NCBI RefSeq assembly: GCF_000966265.1
Contig: NZ_LANF01000011.1
Location: 62,001 to 126,000 of the forward strand
DNA from: Palaeococcus ferrophilus DSM 13482
GTDB taxonomy: Archaea > Methanobacteriota_B > Thermococci > Thermococcales > Thermococcaceae
Reading direction: 5' to 3'
DNA length: 64,000 nucleotides
In this document: positions 55,906 to 60,739 of the stretch, one piece after another
Layout: every line of letters starts with the position of its first letter
How positions within the stretch are numbered: the stretch's first letter is position 1
Position numbers and translations under genes: made by a program
Notes under the pieces: generated by a model
Told to the model about the DNA's origin: nothing
The model's database searches: none
The model's input: only the letters and a program-made list of their open reading frames with translations

Positions 55906-56054
55906 GGGGGCATGGTGTAGCCTGGTCCATCATCGCGGGCTCCAGAGGCCATGAGGACAAGCGGGTTTGCTGACTCGGGGCATGATGACCCTTTGGAGCC
56001 CCGAGCGGCTGGAGAAACCCGCGGACCGGGGTTCAAATCCCCGTGCCCCCACCA
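55906..56054 (+). tRNA. tRNA-Trp (anticodon CCA) with a box C/D intron
   Basis: Exon 1 (55906-55945) begins GGGGGCATGGTGTAGCC and ends at G37 after anticodon CCA (55942-55944). Exon 2 (56017-56054) begins at A38, contains T loop TTCAAAT and ends with TGCCCCCA plus encoded CCA. The acceptor stem GGGGGCA/TGCCCCC is perfect. The intron of about 71 bases is an RNA-guide element, described separately. The anticodon stem is GCGGG/CCCGC. Intron borders follow the canonical 37/38 position and could shift by a base. Confidence 0.93.
55946..56016 (+). ncRNA. Box C/D guide RNA within the tRNA-Trp intron
   Basis: The intron has C box ATGAGGA (55951), D' box CTGA (55970), C' box ATGATGA (55982) and a variant D box CCGA (56001). 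The guide before D' (GCGGGTTTG) pairs with exon 2; the fifth base from D' faces position 39. The guide before D (TGGAGCC) pairs with exon 1; the fifth base faces C34. These are the two 2'-O-methylation sites known for archaeal tRNA-Trp introns. Confidence 0.85.
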
Positions 56055-57411: not shown

Positions 57412-57692
57412 ATGAAGGTTGAGGGAATCCCTGTGCCGGGGGCCTATTTTTACAACTTTCTGAGCAAAAGGCGGAAGAACCTCGCAGTTTCATTGGCCGG
57501 GAGATTACCTTCCGGATTGAGGGGGAGGCCCTCGACGTCGGAACCGGTCCAGGTTTCATCCCGATAGAGATTGCTCGGATGAACCAAGGTGAAAGGGTAG
57601 ACGTCTCGAAGATAACGGTGCCTTTAGTGACTGGTCCTGAGAAAGGCCTGAATATAAAACAACGTTTCTCATCGTTTATTAGAGGTTTTTAG
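57412..57692 (+). pseudogene. Decayed SAM-dependent methyltransferase fragment
   Basis: From ATG 57412 one frame reads MKVEGIPVPGAYFYNFLSK and hits a stop at 57565. Another frame, open from about 57501, reads IEGEALDVGTGPGFIPIEIA, the SAM-binding motif I of class I methyltransferases, and stops at 57692. Joined, they look like the N-terminal 80-odd residues of a methyltransferase with a frameshift near 57480-57500. The rest of the domain is missing. This best explains the 430-base gap after sufS. Confidence 0.65.
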
Positions 57693-57725: not shown

Positions 57726-57736
57726 AATATATTCAA
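57726..57736 (+). promoter_or_regulatory. TATA box of the helical secreted-protein operon
   Basis: AATATATTCAA follows AAAAGGGC (BRE-like). Transcription would start near 57757, inside the 18-bp palindrome. Confidence 0.45.
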
Positions 57737-57750
57737 TAGAGTGGAAAATG

Positions 57751-57768
57751 GAACGTTCCGGAACGTTC
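57751..57768. promoter_or_regulatory. 18-bp perfect palindrome, probable operator
   Basis: GAACGTTCCGGAACGTTC is identical to its reverse complement and is itself built of two GAACGTTC palindromes. It lies about 20 bases after a TATA box and about 55 before the start of the helical secreted protein, a typical repressor position. I do not know a Thermococcales regulator with this site. Confidence 0.55.
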
Positions 57769-57822
57769 TTTTCACCGGGGCCCTAAAATAGACGAAAGGC
57801 GTAGGTGGTAGTGGTGATGGAC

Positions 57823-59013
57823 ATGAAGTGGTTGAAGGTATGGTTGGTGATAGGTCTGCTCGTGGGGAGCCTTGTCCCCGCGGGTCTGAGCCTTGCGGAC
57901 GAGGGAACCAACACCGAGCCCCTGCCACCGGAGATGGAGAACGTAACGCAGGAGCAGATAATAGCCGAACACATAGTGGACGCTCTCACCAAGCTCAGCA
58001 GCATGGCGGACGGCATAATGGCAAACATCACACTACCGGAGAACTCCACAATAATGGAACACTACGAGCTGGCGACGCAGTATAAAGAGGAAGCGCTGAA
58101 AGCATACGACGAGGGGGACTATTACAATACAATAATAAACGGCCTGACGGCGATGCACCACTACAGGGTCATGCTCCAGAGCATGAAGGAAAGGAGAAGC
58201 GAGCTGAGGGAGGACCTTCCTGCCGAAGTTAGGAGGATGGAAGGCTACTTCAGGATGGCCGAGCGCATAATAAGCAAGGCCCAGGAGCAGGGTATTGACG
58301 TGGGCAACGCCCCCGAGCTACTTAACCAGACTAAGGAGGCCTACCGCACGGTGCTGGAGGACATAAAGGCGAAGGACTTTGCCAAGGCCAAGGAGGACAT
58401 TGAAAAGGCGAGGGAGCTCAAGGCCCAGCTCGACGATGCCCTCAGGGGCATAAGGGAGGAGCTCGCCTACGCAAACGCGGACAAAATCGTTAATGCGTTC
58501 CTCGAGAGGGGTGCGAAGGGCATAGAGGTGGCTCAGGAAGTTATAGCGAAGGCCAACGAGACCGGTGCAAACGTCACGGAGCTTCAGGAGAGGCTCGATG
58601 CTTTCCAGGCGGTCTACGACGAGGTTAAGGGCATGGCCGATGAGGGCAACTACACCGGGGCCCTGGACGTTATGAAAGAGAACAGGGAAGCCATAGGGGA
58701 GTTCTACAAGGCGATGGAGTTCATAAAGAGAAAGGCTCACGAGAGGGAAGTCCAGGAGAGGATGAAGGACGTCAAGAAGTTCCTCAGGGAGATGTACGGA
58801 AGGCTCACCAAGGACGGAAAGGCCCTTAGGGAGCTCCACAGGAAAGGTGTGGACACCAGGAGGGCGGAGCTTCAGCTGAGAACTGCTATGCAGGAGTTCC
58901 GCTTTGGAGTTGAGCTGCTCAAGCGCGGGAGGCCCATGGAGGCGAAGGCCCACTTCGCCATAGCCCTCGACCTCACCCACAGGGTCGAGGAGTTCATACT
59001 CTGGCACGGCTGA
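57823..59013 (+). CDS. Secreted alpha-helical (coiled-coil) protein
   Basis: The 396-residue protein has a signal peptide (WLVIGLLVGSLVPAGLSLA) followed by an almost wholly helical, charged body with repeating heptad-like segments (KAKEDIEKARELKAQLDDAL, AKANETGANVTELQERL) and internal similarity between residues near 150 and near 235 (AQEQGIDVGNAPELLNQTKEAY and AKANETGANVTELQERLDAF). It has no membrane anchor at the C terminus. ATG at 57823 follows GGTGATGGAC; ATG at 57817 is the alternative. Probably extracellular or cell-surface, perhaps partnered by the CGP-CTERM protein encoded next. Confidence 0.65.
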   Translation: MKWLKVWLVIGLLVGSLVPAGLSLADEGTNTEPLPPEMENVTQEQIIAEHIVDALTKLSSMADGIMANITLPENSTIMEHYELATQYKEEALKAYDEGDYYNTIINGLTAMHHYRVMLQSMKERRSELREDLPAEVRRMEGYFRMAERIISKAQEQGIDVGNAPELLNQTKEAYRTVLEDIKAKDFAKAKEDIEKARELKAQLDDALRGIREELAYANADKIVNAFLERGAKGIEVAQEVIAKANETGANVTELQERLDAFQAVYDEVKGMADEGNYTGALDVMKENREAIGEFYKAMEFIKRKAHEREVQERMKDVKKFLREMYGRLTKDGKALRELHRKGVDTRRAELQLRTAMQEFRFGVELLKRGRPMEAKAHFAIALDLTHRVEEFILWHG

Positions 59014-59044: not shown

Positions 59045-59611
59045 ATGAAACGCCTTCTTATCCTTCCGCTGCTCCTCATACTCCCCTTCGTGAGTGCGGG
59101 GATGACGGTGGAACCATATGAAGACGGCTACGCGGTGGTGAGCCTCGAGATTCCGATGGAGGAGTACACCACGAGCGTTGATCTGGTCCTCCCGCCGGAG
59201 TATACCGACGTCTTCGTGGTTGATGAGAACGGGAACCCTCTGCCCTACACCCTCGATGGACGCTCCCTCCACGTTGAAGCCGCGGGGGCGCAGGTCGTTA
59301 ACGTGACATACACAACGCCATCGCTCCTGGAGAAGGAGGGGGATGTATGGACGCTGAGCATCAACGCCTCCTCTCCCGTGACCGTGGTGCTCCCCGAGGG
59401 GGCCATTCTCGTGGCCCTCAGCGAAGCGCCCCTTGAGATGAATGAAAACGCCATAACGATGCCCTCCGGCGAGGTGTGGGTGAGCTACACCTTCCCGACC
59501 TCAAATGTGGAAGTAGGGGAGACTCCAACCACGGCAGAAAAAGGTGTGTGCGGGCCTGCCCTCATAGGCCTTCTGGCTATCCTTCCCCTCGCAATGAGAA
59601 AAAGTTTATGA
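59045..59611 (+). CDS. CGP-CTERM surface protein
   Basis: The 188-residue protein has a signal peptide (LLILPLLLILPFVSAG), a beta-rich ectodomain and a threonine-rich spacer (VGETPTTAEK). It ends with GVCGPALIGLLAILPLAMRK, a CGP-CTERM sorting signal found in Thermococcales. The cysteine of CGP is thought to be processed and lipid-linked. ATG follows GGAGGTGATCAA. It starts 31 bases after the helical secreted protein and is likely in the same operon. Confidence 0.85.
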   Translation: MKRLLILPLLLILPFVSAGMTVEPYEDGYAVVSLEIPMEEYTTSVDLVLPPEYTDVFVVDENGNPLPYTLDGRSLHVEAAGAQVVNVTYTTPSLLEKEGDVWTLSINASSPVTVVLPEGAILVALSEAPLEMNENAITMPSGEVWVSYTFPTSNVEVGETPTTAEKGVCGPALIGLLAILPLAMRKSL

Positions 59612-59643: not shown

Positions 59644-59916
59644 ATGTTCGTGGCCAGACCCTGTTCTACGTCCAAAGCCGTCTACGTAACCCCTGAGGGA
59701 AGCTTTGACGTTGACCTCGAAGAGCTCTGCGAGTGTCTGAGCGAGAGGGGTTTCGTGATAAAGCGCGTGACCCCCCACATAGCCATACTCCGGAAGGGGT
59801 ACGAGGTAAGCGTCCTCAGGAAGGGGAAGATTATAGTCAAGGGCACCACAGAGACGGAGGAAGCTTTAAGAATAGCTGAGGAAATCTATGGCTGCATGAA
59901 GGTCTACGGGTGGTAG
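59644..59916 (+). CDS. Small conserved hypothetical protein (90 aa)
   Basis: The 90-residue soluble protein has four cysteines and a predicted beta-rich then helical pattern, ending in VSVLRKGKIIVKGTTETEEA. The rhythm (beta strands, KIIVKGTT, helix) recalls half a TATA-binding-protein fold, but this is only a resemblance. ATG follows TTTGGTGATTAA. The next gene starts 2 bases after its stop, so the two are an operon. Confidence 0.6.
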   Translation: MFVARPCSTSKAVYVTPEGSFDVDLEELCECLSERGFVIKRVTPHIAILRKGYEVSVLRKGKIIVKGTTETEEALRIAEEIYGCMKVYGW

Positions 59917-59917
59917 C

Positions 59918-60739
59918 GTGTTCACGCCTGAGAGGATAGCTGAAGAGATAATAAAGATACGGCGCGAGAACGGCTTTGACATCGTGCCCTTCGTGGTAGA
60001 GGATGTCATCTACGAAGAAGAGGCCAAAAGGCTCTACATAATAGGCCAGGACAGGGCCGACAAAAGCGCGATAATAGGCAACAGCTTCGTAGTTGGAAAG
60101 CTCAAGGAGCGGCTCGGGGTTGAGAGGATAACCGTGCACTCCAAGCTTGAGCTGTTGATCAAGCGAAGGAACGTAAGGGAAAACATGGAGAAGGTAAGGG
60201 GCACGCAGCTGGAGTTCCTCCTTCCGCTGATGGAGGCGGAGCTCAACTACCCACCCATGCGGTGGCCCTCCCTAAAAAACAACGGAAGGGCCCTTGTCTT
60301 CCTCAGCGTCTACGCCAAAGCACTCCTCGGGTTCGCGAGGGACTTCGGTCTTGAGGCGGTCCCGGTCGGCATTCGCTACTCCTTCCCCCGACTGAGCTTT
60401 GAGCCCCTCGACGGCTCTCCAGAGGAGATATTCTTCCCCAACGAGGAGAGGCTCGTGGAGCTGGCGGAGGAAAAGGGCCTCGATATAGTGCTGGCGGACT
60501 TTCCCTACGGCGTGACCTTCAGGGAGGGGATAGCGCTGGTCAACCCCATGAGGCTCCTCCACATCCCCCACTTCAGGCTCAAACACATCTACGGCTTCGA
60601 GTTCCCCGCCTATTCCCACGTGGATGGAAGAAAAGCTCTCGACTTCTTCGTGAAGCTCGCCGAGGACGGACTGCTTGAGCCCACGGACGGGGCAGAGCTC
60701 ATATGGACCGCGTGGAGGAGGGGCAGGGCCCGCCCGTAG
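59918..60739 (+). CDS. Conserved hypothetical protein (273 aa)
   Basis: The 273-residue soluble alpha/beta protein has no membrane segments. IIGQDRADKSAIIGNSFVVGKL near residue 42 and VITVHSKLELLIKRRNV-like ITVHSKLELLIKRRNV near 70 suggest a nucleotide- or sulfur-handling fold, but no family is recognised. GTG at 59918 has the ribosome site GGTGGTAGC. Coupled to the preceding small gene. Confidence 0.6.
   Translation: MFTPERIAEEIIKIRRENGFDIVPFVVEDVIYEEEAKRLYIIGQDRADKSAIIGNSFVVGKLKERLGVERITVHSKLELLIKRRNVRENMEKVRGTQLEFLLPLMEAELNYPPMRWPSLKNNGRALVFLSVYAKALLGFARDFGLEAVPVGIRYSFPRLSFEPLDGSPEEIFFPNEERLVELAEEKGLDIVLADFPYGVTFREGIALVNPMRLLHIPHFRLKHIYGFEFPAYSHVDGRKALDFFVKLAEDGLLEPTDGAELIWTAWRRGRARP

Follow-up and report, generated by a model that had tools for sequence, protein, structure and literature searches.

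An 18-bp palindrome of Palaeococcus ferrophilus as the upstream half of a putative 41-bp control element before a secreted-protein operon in Thermococcaceae

What does a perfect 18-bp palindrome do in front of an archaeal operon for a secreted protein? Within the window, a stretch of 64,000 nucleotides from Palaeococcus ferrophilus DSM 13482, the palindrome GAACGTTCCGGAACGTTC lies just before hel, which encodes a secreted helical protein and is followed by a gene for a CGP-CTERM protein (Table 1). An earlier note, in which the sequence and the coordinates 57751–57768 were exact, had proposed that the palindrome covers the transcription start of this operon and regulates it, that so long an exact palindrome is very unlikely by chance, and that it cannot be linked to a known archaeal regulator. 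The comparisons presented here indicate that it forms the upstream half of an approximately 41-bp control element, long conserved throughout the Thermococcaceae before hel and a few other cell-surface genes.

The palindrome and its operon among Thermococcaceae

GAACGTTCCGGAACGTTC is the longest perfect palindrome of the window and a single-copy sequence: the genome search suggested in the earlier note, conducted over the 64-kb window and the full 2.2-Mb genome, returned no further copy at up to three mismatches. Its length by itself is unremarkable and constitutes weak evidence, given that 22 of 60 simulated windows (third-order Markov model, 64 kb each) contained a perfect palindrome as long as this one or longer; the assertion that such a length is very unlikely by chance was too strong. 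It is because of its conservation, and not its length, that the palindrome stands far above chance. At up to two mismatches it was found in 33 of 94 Thermococcaceae genomes, compared with 1 of 94 for a reversed control pattern, and nearly always as one site per genome. Twenty-five of the 33 sites precede a hel ortholog at a near-constant distance (the first base lies mostly 66 bp ahead of the codon aligned with 57817), and all six genera are represented. The earlier note had called for such a comparison of orthologous promoters and would have given up the site if it were absent in all relatives; it is kept in six genera before the same gene, which supports its predicted role in regulating the hel operon. 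A chance palindrome, common as such lengths are in the simulations, is refuted by this fixed location across six genera and by the clean reversed-pattern control, and we give it practically no weight. About ten genomes that carry hel, several of them near-complete, have the site rearranged or missing. Seven of the eight sites away from hel are the identical coding sequence of one gene (GAACGTTCAGGAACGTTT, in seven genomes), and these were discarded as not regulatory.

The hel and CGP-CTERM pair is kept in relatives. The AlphaFold2 model of the hel product is all-helical (mean pLDDT 81, pTM 0.52); a Foldseek search with this model against the PDB gave no match at E <= 0.001, and searches of Pfam and NCBIfam gave weak EzrA-like coiled-coil matches only. 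Target gene 2 scores 19.5 bits against TIGR04288, below the cut-off of 21. The two genes that follow possibly belong to the same operon. The first of them (59644–59916), a possible third operon gene, encodes a 90-aa half-TBP-like protein (PF00352, E 0.06; NCBIfam TBP, 16 bits) and is third in genome G075 too. Between a cysteine desulfurase gene and hel, at 57412–57660, there is an apparent frameshifted methyltransferase remnant (MKVEGIPVPGAYFYNFL...), the counterpart of which in G075 is intact (L201:11461-12096, 211 aa, MIEGIPAPGAYLYNFL...).

Anatomy of the composite element and position of the start

In an ungapped promoter alignment anchored on the site (43 non-redundant promoters, with flanks less than 80% alike), the conserved block is sharply bounded. 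It spans 41 columns with a mean of 1.35 bits, compared with 0.31 bits over the 40 columns upstream and 0.30 bits over the 19 columns downstream (Mann–Whitney p = 1.6e-13 and 1e-8, respectively), and its consensus is GGAACGnTYYGRAACGTTCKTTYCAcCGgRTYCCTAAAATA. Some 20 unconserved bases follow, and then a preferred A, GGTGAT and the ATG.

Table 1. Coordinates of the element, the predicted core promoter and the downstream genes (positions in the window)
Feature	Position	Strand	Description and basis
18-bp palindrome GAACGTTCCGGAACGTTC	57751..57768	.	Distal part of composite; about -59 to -42 from predicted start; orthologous promoters
Distal half-site GGAACG	57750..57755	+	Alignment columns 0-5, 1.2-1.8 bits
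Proximal half-site GRAACG	57760..57765	+	10 bp 3' of distal half-site; columns 10-15
Third, inverted half-site CKTTYCA	57768..57774	-	Here CTTTTCA, near BRE; columns 18-24
Predicted weak BRE GGGGCCC	57777..57783	+	Relatives GnRTYC, without A-rich consensus; conserved block
Predicted TATA box TAAAATA	57784..57790	+	Conserved CCTAAAATA; columns 34-40, 1.0-1.6 bits; start spacing 23 bp
Predicted transcription start A	57810	+	13-nt 5' UTR; column 60, A in 77%; from TATA spacing
Ribosome binding site GGTGAT	57813..57818	+	Conserved columns 63-68; fits GGDGRD (PMC4247193)
hel (target gene 1)	57823..59013	+	Secreted all-helical protein, 396 aa; ATG 57823
CGP-CTERM protein (target gene 2)	59045..59611	+	188 aa; 31-bp gap after hel
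Two more co-directional genes	59644..60739	+	90 aa (half-TBP-like) and 273 aa; order as in G075

Three half-sites (GGAACG, GRAACG and inverted CKTTYC) are common to all promoters. The first two form a 10-bp direct repeat on the same face of the helix (identity 0.78 over the 43 promoters), and the second and third form an overlapping dyad, GRAACG-NN-CKTTYC, that is 0.73 complementary. The full symmetry is less widespread: AACGTT-N4-AACGTT occurs in 23 of 66 promoters, perfect or near-perfect symmetry is found in the window's genus and three other genera, and pair 6/13 of the palindrome is kept in 15 of the 43 non-redundant promoters and broken in the other 28, among them most of Thermococcus. 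Strict 18-bp symmetry thus appears to be a lineage-specific version of the three-half-site arrangement, and since it is not kept in most Thermococcus, the mode in which a dimer would bind is uncertain. A hel paralog of the window's own genome (G000:C6:72500-72538, L129) keeps the proximal half-site, the spacer and the core promoter (GGAACGTTCTTTTCACCGCGTTCCTAAAATA) and lacks the distal half-site, which suggests that the proximal unit may be the essential one.

In mapped promoters of T. kodakarensis the TATA box and the BRE lie 23 and 33 bp before the start, the median leader is 16 nt and the ribosome binding site is GGDGRD (PMC4247193). The spacing of TATA box, BRE, ribosome binding site and ATG in the hel promoter agrees with these mapped Thermococcus promoters; its BRE, like that of the relatives, deviates from the consensus VRAAA (PMC5937170).

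The idea that the palindrome covers the start is not supported by the alignment. It would have transcription begin inside the palindrome, as an operator over the start, from the TATA-like sequence at 57728–57734 (TATATT, some 24 bp upstream in the window). That sequence is unconserved (columns -24 to -17), whereas the TATA box, the A that we infer to be the start, the ribosome binding site and the ATG are conserved and all lie downstream of the palindrome. Therefore the palindrome most likely does not lie over the start; its predicted place is some 42–59 bp upstream of it, ahead of the BRE and TATA box. Moreover, the 3' end of the upstream gene extends into the palindrome in many of the Thermococcus relatives; the sole core promoter shared by all is the downstream one, so that we regard a start inside the palindrome as quite improbable.

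Composite sites elsewhere and the putative regulon

The composite pattern, searched with three mismatches allowed in the 94 Thermococcaceae genomes, gave 84 sites in 65 genomes; the reversed control gave none. The 19 genomes in which hel was not detected, some incomplete assemblies among them, had no site, and neither had 21 genomes of other families of the class. Presence of the composite is associated with presence of hel (Fisher p = 6e-13), an association that is partly trivial because most composite sites sit at hel. A conserved element with fixed spacing, found before further genes and restricted to this family, is what these searches show.

The composite precedes genes of unrelated families: hel/CGP-CTERM operons and their paralogs, a single-TM LamG surface protein (G000, G031 and G064), the PF13732-bearing ATPase of an ABC exporter (G089 and G093), a PMT_2 (GT-C) transferase (G001) and, in G000, G001, G075, G077 and G090, a small, soluble protein of about 110 aa. 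The window's genome has four composite sites: at hel, at a hel paralog, at LamG and at the small protein. Several of the non-hel sites have two or three mismatches and occur in one to three genomes each, for which reason the evidence for them falls short of that for hel; judged by their recurrence in several genomes, the small-protein and LamG sites appear to be the firmest. In G001 and G075 the small-protein gene sits before tRNAs and an RpoH-like gene. At L196:6918-7100 in G089 the composite promoter is intact, yet where the small-protein gene is expected there is no open frame of 60 aa, and we take this locus to be what is left of a promoter in front of an apparent pseudogene; it is divergent from the ABC exporter, which has a separate copy of the element.

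Regulator and mode of action

We consider it probable that the sites define a small Thermococcaceae regulon in which a composite operator, joined to the core promoter, is bound by a regulator that most likely activates. The composite would read GGAACGnTYY, GRAACGTT, CKTTYCA, n, weak BRE and CCTAAAATA, with the palindrome as its upstream part. The regulator would recognize a specific sequence, probably as a dimer or a larger oligomer, and contact half-sites spaced by 10 bp on a single helix face; it would bind from about -59 to -36, adjoining a BRE poorly suited to TFB. We infer that the bound regulator aids the loading of TFB and TBP and so activates the hel/CGP-CTERM operons; its targets in certain genomes would also include the LamG, ABC-exporter and GT-C genes of the envelope and the small soluble protein.

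Activation is favoured since the arrangement matches that of the TFB-RF1, CopR, Tar and EarA sites just upstream of BRE and TATA, where the BRE is often weak. TFB-RF1 (PF1088) of P. furiosus is an activator with few targets that recognizes the motif TRBM, TCTGAANTTCAGA; across Thermococcales this palindrome keeps a conserved distance to a weak BRE and a TATA box downstream of it (PMC5937170). The hel element likewise lies at a fixed distance upstream of BRE and TATA and its BRE departs from VRAAA, and one TFB-RF1 target, like the gene at the G089 site, encodes a PF13732-bearing ABC exporter ATPase; however, the best match to TRBM in the hel promoter has 6 of 12 positions mismatched and the target genes differ, which argues against membership of that regulon. 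CopR of P. furiosus (motif TTNNCAWWWTGNNAA) activates from a semi-palindrome directly upstream of the BRE, with oligomer contacts one helical turn apart (PMC7830388). That arrangement is similar to the present one, but the best match to the CopR motif has 4 of 11 mismatches and lies elsewhere in the hel promoter, outside what the CopR regulon would call for. Tar (TK0271) of T. kodakarensis activates a few operons from a palindrome upstream of BRE and TATA (PMC6737238), a similar layout, whereas its site TGGACA-N8-TGTCCA has 5 of 12 mismatches here, at odds with membership of its regulon, and its targets are aromatic amino acid genes. EarA of P. furiosus controls a surface structure through short, repeated sites whose distance to the weak BRE downstream is fixed (PMC10665913), again a similar layout; its motif A(C/G)(C/G)TACA(T/C), placed about 9 nt upstream of the BRE, is absent upstream of the BRE in the hel promoter, and the best match (one mismatch) lies downstream of the TATA box, so that hel does not qualify for the EarA regulon. 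The GTT and AAC half-sites of SurR from Thermococcales (PMC12162507) bear a superficial resemblance to the palindrome, which contains GTTCCGGAAC, but SurR needs GTTn3AAC or GTTn3AACn5GTT, whereas the spacer here is 4, and each form has at least two mismatches in the hel promoter, which places hel outside the SurR regulon. The earlier note had been unable to name a known archaeal regulator, and indeed no motif that we tested matches. The motif of the TGM (Tgr/TrmBL1) regulon, TATCAC-N5-GTGATA, has 5 of 12 mismatches in the hel promoter, which speaks against membership there as well. No description of the element's motif was found in the open-access literature (subscription journals lay outside the scope).

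The main rival to activation is that the element is a repressor operator, where the protein, once bound, would mask the BRE and keep TFB away. Regulators adjoining the BRE can exclude TFB, and this reading has some claim because the proximal half-site touches the BRE, the CKTTYCA half-site ending 2 bp short of it. Nonetheless, the Thermococcales sites just upstream of BRE and TATA cited above activate, and so poor a BRE leaves little to be gained from repression; we thus hold a repressor to be unlikely, if deserving of attention. Less attractive by far is the idea that an alternative TFB reads the block as a specialised core promoter, with no separate regulator, to which the unusual conservation of the BRE/TATA flank YCCTAAAATA might point. 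It is very improbable because the window's genus has a single TFB. The element occurs beside one TFB (two cyclin repeats) in the window's genome and likewise in G001, a near relative, and in addition the half-sites reach too far upstream for TFB contacts. A conserved RNA hairpin in a long 5' UTR is scarcely credible; the palindrome can fold into a stem of 8 bp closed by a 4-nt loop, but the fold is no better than that of shuffled sequences (z = 0.17), the 28 promoters in which stem pair 6/13 is broken show no compensation, and the expected start lies downstream of the palindrome. As for TFB numbers more widely, a single TFB (two cyclin-repeat matches) is found in the window's genus and in part of genus g2 (G000, G001), and most other family members have two.

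Returning to an activator, we tentatively put forward, at somewhat short of an even chance, a Thermococcaceae-specific envelope regulon: an oligomeric activator would read AACG half-sites one helical turn apart, rescue promoters with a very poor BRE and so coordinate CGP-CTERM/helical operons with the LamG protein, the ABC exporter and the glycosyltransferase. Among the genes adjoining hel and the remaining targets, no shared regulator gene was seen. One candidate, an XRE-type HTH gene that directly precedes the LamG target of G031 (L200:8905-9288), was rejected by its phylogenetic profile, as it occurs in genomes without hel and sites and is missing from near-complete, site-bearing genomes such as G010, G016, G026 and G034. 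Few archaeal activators with their sites are known, and the 41-bp element offers a defined, testable case in which the predicted targets are mostly envelope genes, CGP-CTERM proteins included, and in which the half-sites and the BRE vary naturally, as a series, across 65 genomes.

Two further features of the window may be recorded. The 8-mer GAACGTTC occurs seven times compared with 0.98 expected; five of the copies are isolated singles (20112, 32405, 36686, 41637 and 43817), possibly reflecting codon usage. At 55947–56006 lies a C/D-box sRNA, sR40 (RF01297, 72.6 bits), which the related sR3 model matches too.
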